Under the pieces are notes generated by a model. It was not told the DNA's origin. It saw only the letters and a program-made list of their open reading frames with translations, and did not search any database. Positions 1 through 23,257 of a stretch of DNA of 25,205 bases are shown here, in pieces. The DNA is taken from positions 1 to 25,205 of IMG/VR virus record IMGVR_UViG_3300024259_000146. The stretch is one strand, 5' to 3'. The translations under genes and the position numbers were made by a program. Source of the stretch: a virus. The first letter of the stretch is position 1. Every line of letters begins with the position of its first letter.

Positions 1-2
1 TA

Positions 3-1067
3 GCAGGTATTGTCCACAACGTCAGAACGGATGAGCTTATAGGCGGAAACCAACGCTCGGAAGCAATAGAAGGAATTATCAGCGGTATCTTGCAACCCGT
101 TATCGTCAAGGAATATGATGAGCCAACGGAAGCAGGTACGCTTGCAATCGGCTTCTACGAGTGGCACGGTGAACAGTATTCTTACCGCCGCGTGGATTGG
201 GACGAGAAGACGGCAGAGCTGGCTAACTTGATAGCAAACAAAGCGGGCGGGTTTTGGGATTGGGATATTCTAGCGAATGATTTTGAAGTAGAAACGCTTT
301 TTGATGCGGGGTTTAGTGAAGATGAATTACTAGGAAATGATTTTGATTTAGGTCTTGACGAAAGCATGGACGCAGAGCCGCAAATTGACAGGGCAGCCGA
401 GTTGCTAGAAAAATGGGGCGTGAAGCTGGGAGATTTATGGCAATTGGGAACGCATAAATTAATTTGCGGCGATTGCACAGACCCCGCAGTCGTTGAGCGG
501 GTTATGGGTGGGGAGAAGGCGGGCGCGTTTGTAACAGACCCGCCATATAATATCTCAAAGGACACATGGGACACAATCGAGAATTATGTTGACTGGTGCA
601 AAAGTTGGTTTTCAAATATAAAAAAATCTCCTGCTTATATTTTTACAGGCTCTTTGCATAGCGGTTTATGGTGGCAAGTATTACCGCCTAATATGGTGTA
701 TTGCTGGCATAAACCAAACGGACAAGGAAACAATCCTGCACGCGGGACAACAAAATGGGAGCCTATTTTATCGTGGAACACTGTGCAGGATAAGCAAACC
801 GATTTTATAGAGCATAATAACGAATATGGCGAAAAAATAAACACGTTACATCTTACGCCAAAGCCGATTGGGCTTATTGAAAAGATTATAAAAAAAACAG
901 ACGGAATAATTGTTGATTTATTTCTAGGCTCAGGAACAACAATGCTTGCATCACAAAACCTATCCCGCCAATGCCGAGCGGTAGAGATAAGTCCTGAGTA
1001 TTGCAGCGTGATTTTAGAGAGAATGAGCGAAGCGTTCCCCGCTCTCGAAATAAAGCGGATAGAGTAG
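3..1067 (+). CDS. ParB-domain DNA methyltransferase (partial, 5' end outside window)
   Basis: The reading frame is open from base 3, so the gene starts before the window; the TTG at 90 is only an internal codon. The visible N-terminal part (ggNQRSEAIEGI, about bases 36-80) matches the ParB/sulfiredoxin-like domain that precedes phage methylases. After a linker comes a short 'LGTHKLICGD' segment, then catalytic motif IV DPPY (bases 537-548) and, near the C-terminus, the SAM-binding motif FLGSGTT (about 920-940). The order DPPY before FxGxG is the beta class, which methylates adenine N6 or cytosine N4. No restriction nuclease gene is adjacent, so it is probably an orphan methylase that marks phage DNA or blocks host restriction. 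Its place just upstream of the terminase genes is common in siphophages. The target sequence cannot be read from the protein. Confidence 0.88.
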   Translation, partial: AGIVHNVRTDELIGGNQRSEAIEGIISGILQPVIVKEYDEPTEAGTLAIGFYEWHGEQYSYRRVDWDEKTAELANLIANKAGGFWDWDILANDFEVETLFDAGFSEDELLGNDFDLGLDESMDAEPQIDRAAELLEKWGVKLGDLWQLGTHKLICGDCTDPAVVERVMGGEKAGAFVTDPPYNISKDTWDTIENYVDWCKSWFSNIKKSPAYIFTGSLHSGLWWQVLPPNMVYCWHKPNGQGNNPARGTTKWEPILSWNTVQDKQTDFIEHNNEYGEKINTLHLTPKPIGLIEKIIKKTDGIIVDLFLGSGTTMLASQNLSRQCRAVEISPEYCSVILERMSEAFPALEIKRIE

Positions 1068-1120
1068 ACTATGGCAAAGCCCACTAAAGCAGCAATAAAA
1101 GAATAGTATCTTGGATTAGT

Positions 1121-1681
1121 ATGAAGCAAGGACAAAGGCGACCACCAATACAACTTGAAAGAGACCGCAGAGAGATTGCGCGTCTCTATTTGCGTGGAGA
1201 GTTACAGTCTGAGATAGGGGATAAGTTAGGACTATCACAGCAAACGATAAGCAACGACCTAAAAGTCATCCAAGAGCAATGGAAGGTTGACCGCGTTGAC
1301 GATATAAACGAGCGAAAGAATATAGAACTTGCGAAGATTGACGCGCTCGAGATAGAGTATTGGTCTGCATGGATTGAAAGCCTGAAAGATGAGCAAACGA
1401 AAAAGGCTATCAAGGCTGGAGATAAAGAAATCAGGCAAGAAATGATAGTGAAGGGGCAAAGCGGAAACCCTGCTTTTCTTCGTGGTATTGAGTGGTGCAT
1501 CAATAAGCGTTGTGATTTGCTGGGGTTGGATGCGCCTAAAAAGTTAGAAAACATGAATTATGACATGAGCATATTACCGGACGAATATCTTGACCGTATA
1601 GCTGGTGGGGAAGATGTTGGTAAAGTATTCGCTGAGTTTTTCGGCTCTTTAGCTGATAAGGTGATCGGTTCGGATGAGTAA
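1121..1681 (+). CDS. terS: Terminase small subunit-like HTH protein
   Basis: This 186-aa protein has an N-terminal helix-turn-helix (residues about 29-50, around LGLSQQTISNDL), a charged helical middle and a C-terminal part (SGNPAFLRGIEWCINKRCDLLGL) of the kind seen in phage small terminase or DNA-packaging proteins. Its last 8 bases overlap the large terminase gene, which supports the role: binding the packaging site and loading the ATPase motor. No clear Shine-Dalgarno lies before ATG 1121. A 11-codon mini-ORF (1071-1106, MAKPTKAAIKE) sits between it and the methylase in another frame. It could be a leader peptide or the lost original N-terminus. The small-subunit role rests on position plus the HTH, since these proteins diverge fast. 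Confidence 0.72.
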   Translation: MKQGQRRPPIQLERDRREIARLYLRGELQSEIGDKLGLSQQTISNDLKVIQEQWKVDRVDDINERKNIELAKIDALEIEYWSAWIESLKDEQTKKAIKAGDKEIRQEMIVKGQSGNPAFLRGIEWCINKRCDLLGLDAPKKLENMNYDMSILPDEYLDRIAGGEDVGKVFAEFFGSLADKVIGSDE

Positions 1682-3023
1682 TGCCGTTATGCAAGCAAAG
1701 GCTGTCAAGGAAAGACGAAAGCGGGACAGAAGCGGGGTAAAAAGAACGAGTGTGTACATCAAGGAAAGAGACGCTTATTTTACTAAGGATATAATAAACG
1801 AGATTTATTTTCCTCATCTCGAAAATATGACCCGCACGCAAATTTTTTATGGCGGGTCTTCTTCTGGAAAGTCTGTATTTTTAGCGCAAAGAGCGGTATA
1901 TGACCTCCTGACCGGAGGAAGAAATTATCTCGCATGTAGACATATTGGCGGGTCATTGGCCGATTCTGTTTTCAAAGAAATAAAAAAAGTTATCATTGAC
2001 GGAAATCTTACTCACCTATTTCAGAAACTACCAAAAACTCTAGGAACCATTACTTGTACAAACGGGTATCAGGCAGTTTTTAAGGGATTGGACGATGCGG
2101 AAAAAGTAAAGTCGATTACCCCGATGGTTGGTGTATTTACCGACATCTGGATTGAAGAAGCTACAGAAACAAGTCGAAATACAATCAAAGCTCTCTATAA
2201 GCGTCAACGTGGTGGTGATCCAGAAACAAAGAAGCGCCTAACACTCTCTTTTAATCCTATCCTGCAAGACCACTGGATTTACTCAGAGCATTTTCAACCA
2301 AACGCATGGATAGATAAGCAAACCATATTTGATGGAGAAAATGTTTTTATTATCAAGTCCACTTATAAAGATAATCTCTTTCTTACCCCTGAAGATATTG
2401 AGGACTTGGAGAACGAAGAGGACAAGTATTTTTACGAGGTCTATACTCTAGGAAATTGGGGCGTACTCGGTAACGTCATTTTTAAAAACTACGAATTGCG
2501 CGATCTGTCAGGCATGAGAGACCAATTCACAGAACTACGTTTCGGTCTTGATTTCGGTTTTGCTGACGATGAGGCAGCCTTGTGGGCTTCTCATATAGAC
2601 ACCAAGAAAAAAGAAATCTACATCTTCGCAGAGGTTTACGAACTAGGTCTCACGAACCCAGAACTCGCAGACAAGATACGCGCTATAGTCGGTCATCATA
2701 GGGTTGTCTGTGATAGTGCAGAGCCTAAATCCATCAAGGAATTACGGGACAACAGAATCAATGCGGTTGGAGCAAAGAAGGGGCAAGGAAGCGTTAATTT
2801 TGGTATCCAATGGATGCAACAGCATAAACTTATATTTGACCTTAGCTGTATTAACGGTCATAATGAGGTAAGACAATATAAATGGAAAGAGGGACGGGAC
2901 GGAAAACCGGTTACCCCCCCAACGCCTGTTGGCAAAAACGATCACCTTATTGCAGCGGGTCGTTATGCACACGAGGAAGATAGCTATCTGGTTAAATCAG
3001 GTTTTGCCAGAGTAAGAAATTAG
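1674..3023 (+). CDS. terL: Terminase large subunit (PBSX-like ATPase/nuclease)
   Basis: This is the 449-aa DNA-packaging motor. The ATPase half shows Walker A GGSSSGKS (residues 60-67), Walker B DIWIEEAT (157-164, with the catalytic Glu pair) and coupling motif SFNP (192-195). The C-terminal RNase H-like nuclease half shows the acidic residues expected for two-metal catalysis: D293 in LDFGF, D347 in CDSAEP and D423 in KNDHLIAAGRYA. This layout and length match the PBSX/Terminase_3 family. The ATG at 1674 overlaps the small-subunit stop by 8 bases, so translation is probably coupled. The protein acts at the portal vertex to pump and cut concatemeric DNA. All key residues are present, so it looks functional. 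Confidence 0.96.
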   Translation: MSNAVMQAKAVKERRKRDRSGVKRTSVYIKERDAYFTKDIINEIYFPHLENMTRTQIFYGGSSSGKSVFLAQRAVYDLLTGGRNYLACRHIGGSLADSVFKEIKKVIIDGNLTHLFQKLPKTLGTITCTNGYQAVFKGLDDAEKVKSITPMVGVFTDIWIEEATETSRNTIKALYKRQRGGDPETKKRLTLSFNPILQDHWIYSEHFQPNAWIDKQTIFDGENVFIIKSTYKDNLFLTPEDIEDLENEEDKYFYEVYTLGNWGVLGNVIFKNYELRDLSGMRDQFTELRFGLDFGFADDEAALWASHIDTKKKEIYIFAEVYELGLTNPELADKIRAIVGHHRVVCDSAEPKSIKELRDNRINAVGAKKGQGSVNFGIQWMQQHKLIFDLSCINGHNEVRQYKWKEGRDGKPVTPPTPVGKNDHLIAAGRYAHEEDSYLVKSGFARVRN

Positions 3024-3034
3024 GAGAAATAATT

Positions 3035-4558
3035 ATGGAAATGTTAACGAGTTTATCATTCTTGGATAAAGGGGAGGAGTGGCCGCCACATAGCCAAACA
3101 GAGCGATTGAAAAAGTACGCAGACAATCGGAAGCGATTTAAAAACAAACTAGGCTTTGACCGCAAAAAATACAACCATATTATTAGTTTGGTTGGCAATA
3201 AATTTCGAGTAATTGATTATAAGTTCTTAGTGAATTTCTATAAAAAAGTATCGCTGAAAACTTCCGACCTTTTATTTGTTGAACCTCCTACAATTAGCGC
3301 AGGGGATGACGAAACAAAGAATACAGTAATTGAGCAGATCAAAGACTTAAGCGATCTTGATAACATCGGGGCGCAGGCAGCCATAGATGCATCGAGGTAT
3401 GGGGATGCCCTTCTAACTATTAGGATACCAAGTGCAGATGATGAGGAAACCCAAGCGCAAGCGTATATCGGTATCACCTCCCCCTTGTTTTGGTTCCCTG
3501 TTACCAGCCCCATGAACCTGAAAGAAATCACGCAGCACGTTATCGCTTGGACTTCCACCGAGACCATTATAGAGAACGGGAAAGAGAAAGAAGTCACATA
3601 TTTGGATTATCAAATCCATTACAAAGGGCATTACGAGCGCGGGAGAAAGTACGTTGAAAAAGGCACTATCGGAGATGCAATTTTTGTCGGGCAACCTGTG
3701 GAGGTAGAAGACGAGGAGGGCGTTATCGGAAAGCAAGTCTCGGAGCTTGAAAGAGTAGACACAGGGCTTTCGAGTTTTGCCATTATTCCAGCCCAAAATG
3801 TGGTGACAAGCGATACCATTTTTGCCATTGACGATTACGATGATTTCGCAAGCCTAGTCGAAGAACTCCAGGTACGACTTGAAAAGATAGCTCACGTCTT
3901 AGACAAGCACGCCGACCCCTCCCTTTCTGGCCCAACATCTGCCCTGACTTATGACGAAGAAACTGGCGAGTGGTTCTTAAAGATGGGTGATTATTATCAC
4001 CGCAACAGCAAGGAAGACCCCGCAGTCGAATACGTCACTTGGGACGGTAAACTTGAAAGCTCATTCCAAGAAATCGAATTGCTATTAGACCTTATCGCGG
4101 TATTATCCGAGATGGGTTCAGCGATATTTGACCGTGACAGTCTCAAAGGCTCTGGGTTATCTGGTCGGGCTTTACGGCTTCTTTACGTGAACCCGCTAAC
4201 AAAAGTCCGGCGCATCCGTAACCGCTTTGATAGGTCATTCAAAGAGGCAATCGCCCTATGCTCGGAAGTAGGATACGAAGGGAAATCAGTAGAGAAAAAA
4301 GATATTTCTATCAAGTGGAATGACGGTCTCCCGAATGACAAAAAAGAAGATGCAGAAATCGGCGTTATCCGTACAGGTGGCAAGGCTACAGATACGATTG
4401 TCGCTCAGATCATGGAACAGGACGGATTGACCAAAGAAGATGCAGAGGCAAAATACGCCGAGATAGTTAAGGAAACAAACGCCCGATTGTTATCAGAAGA
4501 ACCTGAACCCAACTTCTTTGAAGATGAAGAGGATGAGGGCGAGGGCGAAGAAATCTAA
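3035..4558 (+). CDS. Portal protein
   Basis: This 507-aa protein follows the large terminase by 11 bases and has the expected portal length and composition. An early basic helix-rich segment precedes the GDALLTIRI-type stretch (about residue 128), followed by beta-rich wing segments, a long helical part around residues 335-410 (LDLIAVLSEMGSAIFDR, LSGRALRLLYVNPL) typical of SPP1 Gp6-like portals, and a very acidic C-terminal tail. AGGAGA lies 8-13 bases before the ATG. The portal forms the dodecameric ring at one capsid vertex and contacts the terminase and the head-tail adaptors. Assignment rests on position and the general portal pattern; I saw no conflicting domain. Its stop shares one base with the next ATG (TAATG). 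Confidence 0.9.
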   Translation: MEMLTSLSFLDKGEEWPPHSQTERLKKYADNRKRFKNKLGFDRKKYNHIISLVGNKFRVIDYKFLVNFYKKVSLKTSDLLFVEPPTISAGDDETKNTVIEQIKDLSDLDNIGAQAAIDASRYGDALLTIRIPSADDEETQAQAYIGITSPLFWFPVTSPMNLKEITQHVIAWTSTETIIENGKEKEVTYLDYQIHYKGHYERGRKYVEKGTIGDAIFVGQPVEVEDEEGVIGKQVSELERVDTGLSSFAIIPAQNVVTSDTIFAIDDYDDFASLVEELQVRLEKIAHVLDKHADPSLSGPTSALTYDEETGEWFLKMGDYYHRNSKEDPAVEYVTWDGKLESSFQEIELLLDLIAVLSEMGSAIFDRDSLKGSGLSGRALRLLYVNPLTKVRRIRNRFDRSFKEAIALCSEVGYEGKSVEKKDISIKWNDGLPNDKKEDAEIGVIRTGGKATDTIVAQIMEQDGLTKEDAEAKYAEIVKETNARLLSEEPEPNFFEDEEDEGEGEEI

Positions 4559-5652
4559 TGCTAACAGCAAGCCAGATAGACAAAATCCCGAATGATTTTC
4601 TTGACCTTTGGGAAGTGTTTCAGCAAGAGACATTGAACGATATAGCTAGGCGCGTTGGCAACGTGAATTATGCAAGTGCATCCTGGCAAGTTCAAAGGTT
4701 AATTCAATCTGGCTTAGTTTACGAAGAGACAATAGAAAGGCTCGCCATAATCACAGGGCAAAGTGAGAAAGTTCTTAGGGACACATTCGAAAAAGCGGGG
4801 GTAACAGCTTTGCGATTTGACGATGCCATATACAAGGAAGCTGGGCTTACTCCCCCGCCGCTCTCCGCTTCTCCATCGGTTATAGAGGCAATCACGGCGG
4901 GATATATAAAGACGAACGGAATACTTACGAACCTTACCCGAACAACTGCGAACGCCTCTCAACGTCTTTTTATAGAAGCCGCTGATATTGCTTATCTTCA
5001 CGTATCAACAGGCACGCTCGGTTATGACCAAGCGATACGCAGAGCAATTGACAAAGTAGGCAAAAGCGGTCTATCTGTCACTTATCCATCGGGGCATGTT
5101 GACAAGTTGGACGTAGCAATGAGAAGGGCGGTATTGACAGGCGTTAATCAAACGGTCGGGGTTATGCAAAATGCACGTGCCGACCAAGTAGGGAGCGATC
5201 TTGTAGAAGTGTCTGCCCATATTGGAGCAAGGCCTGAGCACGCAGAATGGCAAGGTAAGATTTACTCACGAACTGGTACTAAATATCCTGACTTCGTGGA
5301 AAGCACGGGCTACGGAACAATGCTCGGTCTTAGCGGAGTCAACTGCCGCCATTCTTGGTTCCCGTTCTTCGCTGGCATTAGCGATAAAGTCTATAAGCAG
5401 GCGGAACTAAACGACATCGCTAATAAATCAGTAACCTATAACGGGCAAGAAATGACCATATACGAAGCATCTCAAGAGCAACGCAGAATTGAGCGCAAAA
5501 TCAGGGAGTGGAAGAGACGAATGGAAGCGCAACGGGCGGATGGCTTTGATGGCGCACAGGAATACGCTAAGGTCAGAGAGTGGCAAGCAAGAGCAAGGGA
5601 CCTGATAAGACAAACGGGGCTTCCGCGCCAATATATACGGGAGAAGGTATAG
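4558..5652 (+). CDS. Phage minor capsid protein (Phage_min_cap2/MuF-like)
   Basis: This 364-aa protein matches the minor capsid protein 2 family of Gram-positive siphophages. Visible hallmarks are the mid-region VEVSAHIGARPEHAEWQGK, the GLSGVNCRHSWFPF segment, and the C-terminal YEASQEQRRIERKIREWKRR-like basic helix. The first two stretches are the MuF-type conserved block (about residues 217-265), which in relatives links to portal-associated capsid morphogenesis. It starts on the last base of the portal stop, so the two are translationally coupled. It probably sits inside or at the base of the capsid, possibly ejected with DNA. No toxin domain is fused to its C-terminus, unlike some MuF proteins. 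Confidence 0.9.
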   Translation: MLTASQIDKIPNDFLDLWEVFQQETLNDIARRVGNVNYASASWQVQRLIQSGLVYEETIERLAIITGQSEKVLRDTFEKAGVTALRFDDAIYKEAGLTPPPLSASPSVIEAITAGYIKTNGILTNLTRTTANASQRLFIEAADIAYLHVSTGTLGYDQAIRRAIDKVGKSGLSVTYPSGHVDKLDVAMRRAVLTGVNQTVGVMQNARADQVGSDLVEVSAHIGARPEHAEWQGKIYSRTGTKYPDFVESTGYGTMLGLSGVNCRHSWFPFFAGISDKVYKQAELNDIANKSVTYNGQEMTIYEASQEQRRIERKIREWKRRMEAQRADGFDGAQEYAKVREWQARARDLIRQTGLPRQYIREKV

Positions 5653-5653
5653 C

Positions 5654-5809
5654 ATGAGCGATGAAGAAGTAATAGAAATTATAAAAAGGCTTGACGCTCT
5701 CGAAGCCACATCTACCCCGTTTTTGATAATTAAGTTTCTAAAACTACTATATTCACTTTGTAGACAATATTCATCCTGGTATGAAAAAGAAATAAAGGGG
5801 ACTTTGTGA
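5654..5809 (+). CDS. Small hypothetical protein (51 aa) downstream of MuF-like gene
   Basis: ATG 5654 begins one base after the MuF-gene stop; the frame encodes 51 aa starting MSDEEVIEIIKRLDALEA and ending KEIKGTL. An AGAAGGTATAGC stretch before the ATG gives a usable ribosome binding site. It has an N-terminal acidic helix and a hydrophobic middle (FLIIKFLKLLYSL, about residues 23-35) that might be an amphipathic or weak membrane helix. I do not recognise a family. The promoter of the following non-coding stretch overlaps its last codons. It is either a small head-region accessory protein or a short spurious ORF; tight coupling favours a real gene. Confidence 0.5.
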   Translation: MSDEEVIEIIKRLDALEATSTPFLIIKFLKLLYSLCRQYSSWYEKEIKGTL

Positions 5810-5831
5810 AAATGTAAAAATATGCTACAAT
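5804..5831 (+). promoter_or_regulatory. Sigma70-like extended -10 promoter before a non-coding RNA
   Basis: TTGTGA (5804-5809), a 16-base spacer and TACAAT (5826-5831), with TG one base before the -10 (TGCTACAAT), form a good extended -10 promoter. The predicted start is near 5838. It lies over the end of the 51-aa ORF and fires into the hairpin region before the scaffold gene. Confidence 0.6.
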
Positions 5832-5837
5832 GGCAAC

Positions 5838-5928
5838 ACAGCACAACGCCTTTGGGCGGGGTGCAGCTAACCAAGTAGGGCATTATGCCACGCTTTTTGA
5901 CAGAAGATCGTCAGAGCGTGGTTTTTTT
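5838..5928 (+). ncRNA. Candidate structured small RNA or leader before scaffold gene
   Basis: Between a promoter (-10 at 5826-5831) and an intrinsic terminator lies about 90 nt with no ORF of note. It contains a hairpin GCAC-AA-CGCC-TTTG-GGCG-GG-GTGC (5841-5864) with an AA/GG internal loop, a second hairpin GGCA-TTA-TGCC (5879-5889), and the terminator stem. The second hairpin shares bases 5888-5889 with the terminator stem, so the two compete slightly. It could be a free-standing phage RNA or a leader that controls readthrough into the capsid genes. I do not recognise any known RNA family. Confidence 0.5.
5888..5928 (+). terminator. Intrinsic terminator upstream of scaffold gene
   Basis: CCACGCT (5888-5894) pairs with AGCGTGG (5915-5921), with an inner TGAC/GTCA stem (5898-5901 and 5910-5913), followed by seven T (5922-5928). 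It would end transcripts from the promoter just upstream and could attenuate readthrough from the portal operon. Confidence 0.8.
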
Positions 5929-5937
5929 GTTACCCCA

Positions 5938-5995
5938 CCTTGAAGGGATATAAACTCAAGGAAAAATCAAGTCGGAGTAGACCGACATATAAACT
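5938..5995 (+). repeat. Two hairpins, each with an ATATAAACT direct repeat
   Basis: Hairpin one pairs CCTTGA (5938-5943) with TCAAGG (5956-5961). Hairpin two pairs GTCGG (5971-5975) with CCGAC (5982-5986). The 9-base direct repeat ATATAAACT occurs at 5948-5956 and 5987-5995, 39 bases apart, inside or just after the hairpins. They lie between the terminator and the scaffold gene, where a protein- or RNA-level control site would sit. Confidence 0.5.
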
Positions 5996-6015
5996 AAATC
6001 TAATGGAGCTATAGA

Positions 6016-6651
6016 ATGAAATTCTTGAAAGAACACTTAAGCGAAGACCTTTTCGCGCAGCTACAAGAGGCCTTGAAAGATAATAAGGATGTAAAACTTG
6101 CCAACCTTTCATCTGGCGACTATGTAGCAAAAGCGAAATTCGATACAAAGCTGGATGAGATATCAACTCTGAAAGAACAACTCGAAGGTCGCAATAATGA
6201 TGTAACCGCTCTCCAGGAACAACTGAAAGGCGTAGAAGGTGTGGACGATCTGAAAGGAAAACTTTCAGAACTCCAAACAAAATACGATGGAGATATGGCA
6301 AGTCATCAAGAAAAGATTGTCTTGGCAAACGCCTCGCTTAAGGTCATGGAGATGGGAGCAAAAAACGCAGCAAGCGTTCTGGCTCACGTTGATATGAGTA
6401 AGGTAAAACTTGGAGAAGACGATACTCTCCAGGGATTATCAGAACAGGTGACACCATTACAGGAGAGTATGGACTTCCTGTTTGGAGAGCCTAAAAAAGT
6501 TTATAAAAGCACACCGCCAAGCCCTCCCCCACCACCTGACGATAATCGCTCAGACTGGGAGAAGAAATTCAAAGATGCAAAAGATATAAGCCCTGTAGAG
6601 GCTATCAAAGTGAAACAAGCTGCATTTGCGGAGGGCATAATTCTAAATTAA
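6016..6651 (+). CDS. Capsid scaffolding protein (GP20-like)
   Basis: This 211-aa protein has the composition of a phage scaffold. It carries a long coiled-coil-prone stretch of heptads (about residues 43-105, KLDEISTLKEQLEGRN and ALQEQLKGVEG), a helical segment (105-125), a run of eight residues with seven prolines (167-174) acting as a hinge, and a short charged C-terminal helical domain that in relatives docks on the coat protein. It lies directly before the major capsid gene, as scaffolds do, and matches the minor structural protein GP20 pattern. GGAGCTATAGA gives the ribosome binding site. It is expected to guide procapsid assembly and then exit or be degraded; no protease domain is visible. 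Confidence 0.85.
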   Translation: MKFLKEHLSEDLFAQLQEALKDNKDVKLANLSSGDYVAKAKFDTKLDEISTLKEQLEGRNNDVTALQEQLKGVEGVDDLKGKLSELQTKYDGDMASHQEKIVLANASLKVMEMGAKNAASVLAHVDMSKVKLGEDDTLQGLSEQVTPLQESMDFLFGEPKKVYKSTPPSPPPPPDDNRSDWEKKFKDAKDISPVEAIKVKQAAFAEGIILN

Positions 6652-22535: not shown

Positions 22536-22627
22536 GCTTACCGGTTCGCTTTACTGGCTTGCGCCCGTAGAGCCTTGTTCATCTTGCGCCGCCGTGGGCG
22601 CAAGTCCAGTGCAAGCGGTTGTTAGAC
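22536..22627 (-). other. attC-like integron recombination site
   Basis: On the minus strand the order is GTCTAAC (R'' box, exact RYYYAAC), a left arm, a GC-rich centre, a right arm, and GGTAAGC (R' box, 6 of 7 to GTTRRRY). The arms on + are CGCTTTACTGG-CTTGCGCCC (22547-22566) and GGGCGCAAG-T-CCAGT-GC-AAGCG (22596-22617), an almost perfect inverted repeat with extra T and GC on one strand, as in folded attC sites. Total span 92 bp is in the attC range. It sits at the 3' end of the ribbon-helix-helix gene, as expected for a cassette on the minus strand. Confidence 0.55.
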
Positions 22628-22784
22628 CCCGCCAATATTGACGGATTCCTTCGCTCAAATTACCTTTGCCTTGCTCGGTATAAAACTTTACGGTATCTTC
22701 ATCGAGCATGACGTTTATTCGCTTCATCGGTTTGGAGAAGAAGGCTGGTTTCCCAGCCCCCTTCTTTTCTTTTTTCTTACGCAT
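22551..22784 (-). CDS. Ribbon-helix-helix protein (77 aa) running into attC-like site
   Basis: This 77-aa basic protein has the ribbon-helix-helix core MKRINVMLDEDTVKFYTEQ and NLSEGIRQYWR (residues about 20-52), as found in Arc/CopG DNA binders and many antitoxins. The last 25 or so residues (GLTTACTGLAPTAAQDEQG and on) are low-complexity and encoded entirely by the attC-like palindrome. The natural stop is thus read through or lost when the site was joined. Its start codon overlaps the previous stop (ATGCGTAA). RHH proteins are frequent passengers of integron cassettes. Confidence 0.62.
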   Translation of the reverse strand: MRKKKEKKGAGKPAFFSKPMKRINVMLDEDTVKFYTEQGKGNLSEGIRQYWRGLTTACTGLAPTAAQDEQGSTGASQ

Positions 22785-22944
22785 GGATGATCCGATTTTT
22801 TACGATTGCCAGAACTGTGATGTTGTGTTCGTTATCGAGTGTGAGGCTTTGCGCTTTGCTGATTATTGCGATTTGCTCGGCTTTCGTGCTGGCTAAGGAC
22901 TTGATGTGTTTTTCAACTTCGCGAACTTCGATTCTGATTTCCAT
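22777..22944 (-). CDS. Small leader-proximal protein (55 aa)
   Basis: From the ATG ending at 22944 the minus frame encodes MEIRIEVREVEKHIKSLAS and ends VKNRIIHA, 55 aa. AGGAG lies 7 bases upstream. It is the first gene after the perfect promoter at 22991-23019. The chain is helical and charged, with no recognisable domain. Its stop overlaps the RHH start by 8 bases, suggesting coupling. It is probably a small regulator or antitoxin-like partner of the RHH protein. Confidence 0.62.
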   Translation of the reverse strand: MEIRIEVREVEKHIKSLASTKAEQIAIISKAQSLTLDNEHNITVLAIVKNRIIHA

Positions 22945-22990: not shown

Positions 22991-23019
22991 ATTATACACA
23001 CATTATTATATTTTGTCAA
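22991..23019 (-). promoter_or_regulatory. Perfect sigma70 promoter for the minus-strand operon
   Basis: On the minus strand TTGACA (complement of 23014-23019), a 17-base spacer and TATAAT (complement of 22991-22996) match the consensus exactly. The start is predicted near 22984. A CTTGAC (22976-22981) / GTCAAG (23015-23020) inverted repeat brackets the promoter, as an operator might. Confidence 0.92.
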
Positions 23020-23065
23020 GTATCAATTTGAGCAATTTTCAAAACTCGTTTGCAAGAATAGCAAG

Positions 23066-23257
23066 CTAACCGCAACACTGCGATAAGTTGCCAGGGTTTA
23101 TTGCCTTACATTTCTTTAGGTGCGTTGCTAGAGCGATAGCATGTTCGCATGTTTCTGAACTGCACGCCCAGCAATACACTCTGTTCGTATTTTTTTCATG
23201 CCATACTTCGACATTTTTAACTTTATAGATAAACGGGTTTACTTTTGTTATACTCAT
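23066..23257 (-). CDS. SWIM-like zinc protein (63 aa)
   Basis: This 63-aa protein has an N-terminal VNPFIYKVKNVEVWHEKN, then CWACSSETCEHAIALATHLKKC. The CEHAIAL end resembles SWIM zinc fingers (CxCxnCxH), although the first pair is CxxC rather than CxC. Such minimal proteins occur in phage early regions, but this one is not assigned to a specific family. It has no clear Shine-Dalgarno. A TGATATACT extended -10 on the minus strand (complement of 23296-23304) may drive it. Confidence 0.55.
   Translation of the reverse strand: MSITKVNPFIYKVKNVEVWHEKNTNRVYCWACSSETCEHAIALATHLKKCKAINPGNLSQCCG

Follow-up and report, generated by a model that had tools for sequence, protein, structure and literature searches.

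Integrons and CALINs have already been described in phages, namely TJE1, PH101, P12002L and M16-3, and five of the six phage attC sites tested in that work were recombined by IntI1 (Qi et al. 2023, PMC9892861). As carriers of integron cassettes, phages have been suspected but little documented. The DNA studied here, which we call the window, is an entire IMG/VR virus record of 25,205 bp with genes for terminase, portal, minor and major head proteins and a tape measure protein, and the cassette carrier is a tailed phage. It has in common with the phage CALINs (PMC9892861) a small gene bounded by attC with no integrase nearby; it differs in that the attC lineage is another one (of the published phages tested, our covariance model matches M16-3 alone), in that the window site is single with a damaged R′ box, and in that many uncultivated phage contigs are involved, with a common attI-like motif and cassette differences among relatives. 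The kind of site is thus known from phages (2023, PMC9892861); the literature we searched, which covers the field in part, held no report of arrays on this scale in uncultivated phages and none of a common phage attI-like motif without an integrase.

Two other systems offer a comparison. With sedentary chromosomal integrons the family described below has in common the register between R′ and R″, an attC fold with extrahelical bases and a TIGR02249 integrase beside arrays, whereas the window has no intI. With the cassettes of class 1 mobile integrons (aadA type) it has in common the logic of the R boxes, the paired L boxes and two extrahelical positions, although sequence and spacing are too different for a match of our model to the class 1 cassette region (L162).

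An attC site is an imperfect palindrome of ∼55–150 bp, ordered R″-L″...L′-R′, with R″ fitting RYYYAAC and R′ fitting GTTRRRY, the triplets AAC and GTT being those of the crossover. The palindrome in the window (Table 1) is 92 bp long and is matched from end to end by a covariance model built from sites that did not include it. Its R″ fits the consensus, and its R′ has GGT for GTT, for which reason we class it, by its descent, as an attC whose R′ is damaged. On the minus strand, the arm CGCTT..ACTGG.CTTGCGCCC pairs with GGGCGCAAG.CCAGT.AAGCG. The G-C at 22612-22611 stands unpaired opposite A22552, and A22605 is also unpaired, which places an extrahelical G and T beside the L-box stem on the bottom strand; the columns C22611/G22612 and A22605 are unpaired in the family structure too. 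An earlier note, made from the letters of the window, had called this stretch attC-like on the grounds of an exact R″, a near-match at R′, long matching arms and extra T and G-C bases. All of these are present where it placed them, and a covariance search of the kind that it proposed, with a model built here, returned the site at exactly its coordinates.

Table 1. Features of the cassette, its attC site and the attI-like motif. Positions are those of the window unless a contig is named.
Feature	Position	Strand	Basis or remark
attC site, whole	22536..22627	- (cassette orientation)	held-out covariance model R1, 49.5 bits, E 1.3e-11, model positions 1-98/98
R″ box GTCTAAC	22621..22627	-	sequence; fits RYYYAAC
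Extended R″ GGGGTCTAAC	at 22621..22627	-	same letters in the homologous L123 cassette
R′ box GGTAAGC	22536..22542	-	sequence; GGT replaces crossover GTT, decayed; one mismatch to GTTRRRY
L″ arm GCTT-GC-ACTGG-A-CTTGCGC	22598..22616	-	unpaired G22612/C22611 and A22605; model alignment and family covariation
L′ arm GGGCGCAAG-CCAGT-A-AAGC	22548..22566	-	model alignment
Cassette: promoter, 55-aa ORF, ribbon-helix-helix ORF, attC	about 23070-22536	-	
Ribbon-helix-helix-type ORF, 77 aa	22551..22784	-	last ∼25 codons within attC
55-aa ORF MEIRIEVREV...	22777..22944	-	translation; overlaps start of ribbon-helix-helix ORF
Sigma-70-type promoter TTGACA-17-TATAAT, 12/12	22991..23019	-	cassette-borne
Probable 5′ boundary GTTAG/CTTGCT	23064..23070	-	alignment to GTTAGACCCCTTGCT in L123, 4 nt lost
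attI-like motif	L178 8796; L179 3594; L112 6773-; L125 6036-; L184; L186-L187; L188		

Other ways of finding the site were less informative. Plain folding was modestly better than that of shuffled sequences (z -1.7 / -2.3), so folding alone is insufficient to settle attC identity, and a generic inverted-repeat search missed the palindrome because its arms are interrupted. An Rfam search gave no relevant match, nor did BLAST of the site region against cultured phages give any. A second decayed attC, suspected by eye at about 23070-23190, was unsupported by the covariance model.

We then compared the site with its relatives. Three other viral contigs contain an exact copy of a 22-mer from one arm, and a single genome contig contains it with one base fewer; each of these copies sits in a palindrome of ∼125 bp with an intact R′ GTT and with differing flanks. 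A degenerate pattern built from these relatives found at least 120 viral loci, and the same pattern reversed gave zero matches in the same DNA. Together with the match of the held-out model, the shared 22-mer and this control set the site apart from a chance palindrome. Sites with a good stem number at least 142 distinct examples on at least 103 loci, so that, starting from a single attC, a large family of cassette arrays comes into view on contigs of uncultivated phages. Copies with variable flanks, for which the earlier note had suggested searching, therefore exist as cassette arrays on many viral contigs, and its remark that gene cassettes are rare in phages calls for a qualification, as at least about 100 viral loci make them not very rare in uncultivated phages. 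Among 40 records tested, 23, the window included, had a match to terminase (one family used).

For the covariance model we used 30 sites, all from viral contigs other than the window. The AAC and GTT triplets are constant in the alignment, a constancy that is partly by construction, since GTT and AAC, with parts of L, were prescribed by the seed pattern. The covarying stem was not built in by that pattern. In the 30 sites 97.5% of stem cells are paired, and double-sided changes, which fall at 10 stem pairs, number 122 compared with 35 in shuffles; the covariation score is 0.566, compared with 0.123 when shuffled and 0.05–0.15 when slid. Compensatory change of the kind expected of an attC hairpin is therefore found in the family alignment. 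All remaining matches of the model in the window have E > 1, the next best being 1.8. In the arrays, the bases that follow GTT in the R′ of one site complement the R″ of the next at 6.1 of 7 variable positions, compared with 3.4 of 7 in shuffles and a maximum of 4.3 in 5000 shuffles.

The model also matches Shewanella phage M16-3 (E 8.5e-6) where the published CALIN appears to lie, a position taken from the text of PMC9892861. The class 1 cassette region gave no match, and neither did the portions examined of the TJE1, P12002L and Vibrio phage genomes, which indicates a diverged attC lineage. The genome contig with the shortened arm 22-mer, the sole genome match, is a small contig in a Pseudomonadota MAG, and in 200 Pseudomonadota genomes the degenerate pattern found nothing beyond this MAG and a second match that is likely due to chance.

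Integron integrases were sought with the TIGR02249 profile (cut-off 265 bits). Integrases scoring 334–405 bits adjoin family attC sites on three contigs (G044, G024 and G028), in each of which the linked intI runs in the direction of the cassettes. On a fourth (G017, 44 kb, with a terminase match) an integrase at 257 bits, slightly under the cut-off, likewise adjoins family sites. Judged by its tandem arrays, the R′/R″ register, the covariation of the stem and the neighboring integrases, the family is a bona fide integron one. The window and ten related records gave no match to the profile, and a search for integrases on the contigs with the attI-like motif gave none either. A complete integron has intI and attI in one element; for the window phage an attI-like motif was found at another locus only.

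On these comparisons, the window palindrome is a genuine attC by descent with a damaged R′. It follows an ORF in the same orientation (-), the arrangement of a gene cassette, and the ribbon-helix-helix gene, as the earlier note had observed, reads into the palindrome, which it enters across R″. A homologue of this cassette lies on another viral contig (L123), in a row of at least nine attC sites, where the same promoter and leader, a small ORF and a ribbon-helix-helix ORF are followed by the same extended R″; elsewhere this contig encodes terminase, portal, head and Mom-like proteins. The two cassettes are identical over 47 nt from GTGTATAAT to the ribosome-binding site, and a 25-mer from this promoter and leader stretch is absent from all viral contigs besides these two. 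The ribbon-helix-helix proteins are 35% identical over 51 aa (E 5e-6), a weak homology. A weak match of the window protein to BrnA antitoxin (E 0.018) is below the cut-off. The protein would have a regulatory role through DNA binding. The interpretation given in the earlier note, an integron site that may record a cassette captured by a phage, is supported: the gene that reads into the palindrome belongs to a cassette whose homologue stands in the array of a second phage contig. The L123 cassette begins with GTTAGACCCCTTGCT, complementary to its own R″, and at the aligned place in the window (23070), the probable 5′ boundary, four bases are missing. The GGT in R′ together with these lost bases suggests that the window cassette is a frozen copy, and because of the GGT its attC is probably weak or dead. 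A search for relatives through a neighboring 288-aa protein gave none, and no empty-site relative of the locus was found: near-identical terminase relatives leave that part of the genome uncovered, and the phages with the attI-like motif have no match there.

Related phages point to cassette turnover at a second locus. One contig (G047) is 99.7–99.9% identical to the window over an overlap of ∼7.2 kb and extends it to the left, where it has three more attC sites (E 2.7e-7 to 5.9e-7) with TTCCGCATATCACCTAG/TTAGGC upstream of them. In the general form TGTACATTCCGCATATCACCTAG/TTRGGC this motif is present on eight viral contigs, where it has six different contexts; in most cases family sites follow it, and the cassettes to its right differ between contigs. 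The motif looks like attI, a function suggested by its position and conservation. A 325-bp cassette is 99.7% identical in G047 and G252, from the G of R′ exactly to R″, and beyond both of its ends the sequences are unrelated, except for the attI-like motif. G251 and G252 are identical on the left side and differ by one cassette unit between GAAGCC[GA]CCCAACC repeats; this difference is an R″-to-R″ exchange, unlike the textbook product of IntI. The one-cassette difference (L186 compared with L187) is resolved at R″, over a 14-nt direct repeat, instead of at R′, which would match either top-strand recombination or recombination between short repeats. In G049 the left arm matches G252 and the right arm the window phage, with the junction at the 325-bp cassette, for which recombination and chimeric assembly are both possible. 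A comparison of L178 with L179 as a simple gain of two cassettes was set aside, as the left arms of the two are entirely different, and L179, with one cassette in common, may have arisen by recombination or by chimeric assembly. The case for turnover consequently rests on the cassette common to L178 and L187 and on L186 compared with L187. The family model shows attC identity, and the comparisons show cassette homology, the array context in relatives and the cassette differences between related phages.

The simplest alternative, which the earlier note had named as a possible refutation, is that the palindrome is an ordinary intrinsic terminator ending the ribbon-helix-helix gene. The site does lie at the 3′ end of that gene and has a GC-rich stem, but no T-tract follows the stem on the transcribed minus strand, no terminator-like site was called there, and the gene reads into the stem. 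Moreover, R boxes, spacing and unpaired bases for which a terminator would have no use are conserved in the family, and we regard this explanation as scarcely credible. Hardly better placed is the idea that the family consists of mobile palindromes of a non-integron kind (REP/REPIN-like or phage-specific) that merely resemble attC. Model sites in other arrays nearly always have GTT in R′, yet only 71 of 142, among the matches listed, fit GTTRRRY strictly, which this idea would accommodate, as it would the failure of the model to match class 1 attC. It is made very improbable by the complementarity of R′ and R″ in the register of cassettes, by the TIGR02249 integrases that adjoin the same sites and by the match in phage M16-3. 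The extrahelical G and T of the bottom strand, which we take to be placed as in the aadA7 attC, also speak against it.

It might also be that the attC is real but owes its arrival to recombination with a host array, illegitimate or homologous, in which no integrase took part, and that it has never moved as a cassette in the phage. The phage has no IntI, one exchange between related phages ran from R″ to R″ over a 14-nt repeat and is not a standard IntI product, and the wholesale difference of the L178 and L179 left arms means that the R′ junction may be a module swap. Against this, the cassette common to different phages has its two ends precisely at R′ and R″, and several phages have the attI-like motif in common with different first cassettes behind it. 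We consider such an arrival unlikely, though much less so than the two explanations above. What we favor with high confidence is that the palindrome is a genuine attC closing a gene cassette captured by a tailed phage, in a lineage that gains and loses cassettes; the window copy looks frozen. In its active form the bottom strand would be folded as a hairpin in which G and T bases are extrahelical, and cutting of R′ at G^TT by an integron integrase would allow the cassette to be inserted or excised. The phage lineage would gain and lose cassettes in this way at least at the second locus, behind the attI-like motif. Given that the known phage sequence has no integrase, the host or a co-infecting element would supply the enzyme, and both IntI-mediated movement and the supply of IntI in trans are what we infer for these phages. 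The window copy is now most likely kept as an expressed accessory gene.

It appears that these viruses exchange genes by way of the integron system. We also put forward, tentatively and as something short of an even chance, that phages with the attI-like docking site, changing cassettes and no integrase might borrow the host IntI in trans and so form an integrase-less platform, on which accessory genes and possibly whole modules would be exchanged at R boxes. The sequences reported here are provided for testing the part of phages in integron gene traffic and which integrase is used.

Several further observations were made on these contigs. On L160 (G017 1-6000), in the region 516-4895, an integrase ORF (859-1908) starts within an attC and more attC sites of the same orientation follow, which puts a phage-linked integrase inside a cassette row. 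Between the head genes of the window, positions 5929-6021 (+) gave a match to the GP20-a RNA below threshold (32.3 bits, gathering 47.2, E 0.035). Part of a DNA methyltransferase gene (window 347-1136) finds no match at the nucleotide level in L179 6711-7529, the two being ∼99% identical elsewhere, and the phage contig has a gap of similar length at this place. A repeat of ∼117 bp, 95% identical and containing GCCCCGCC...GGCGGGGC, lies at L179 4033-4149 and L178 8672-8787; one phage has it ahead of the attI-like motif, the other within its cassette region.
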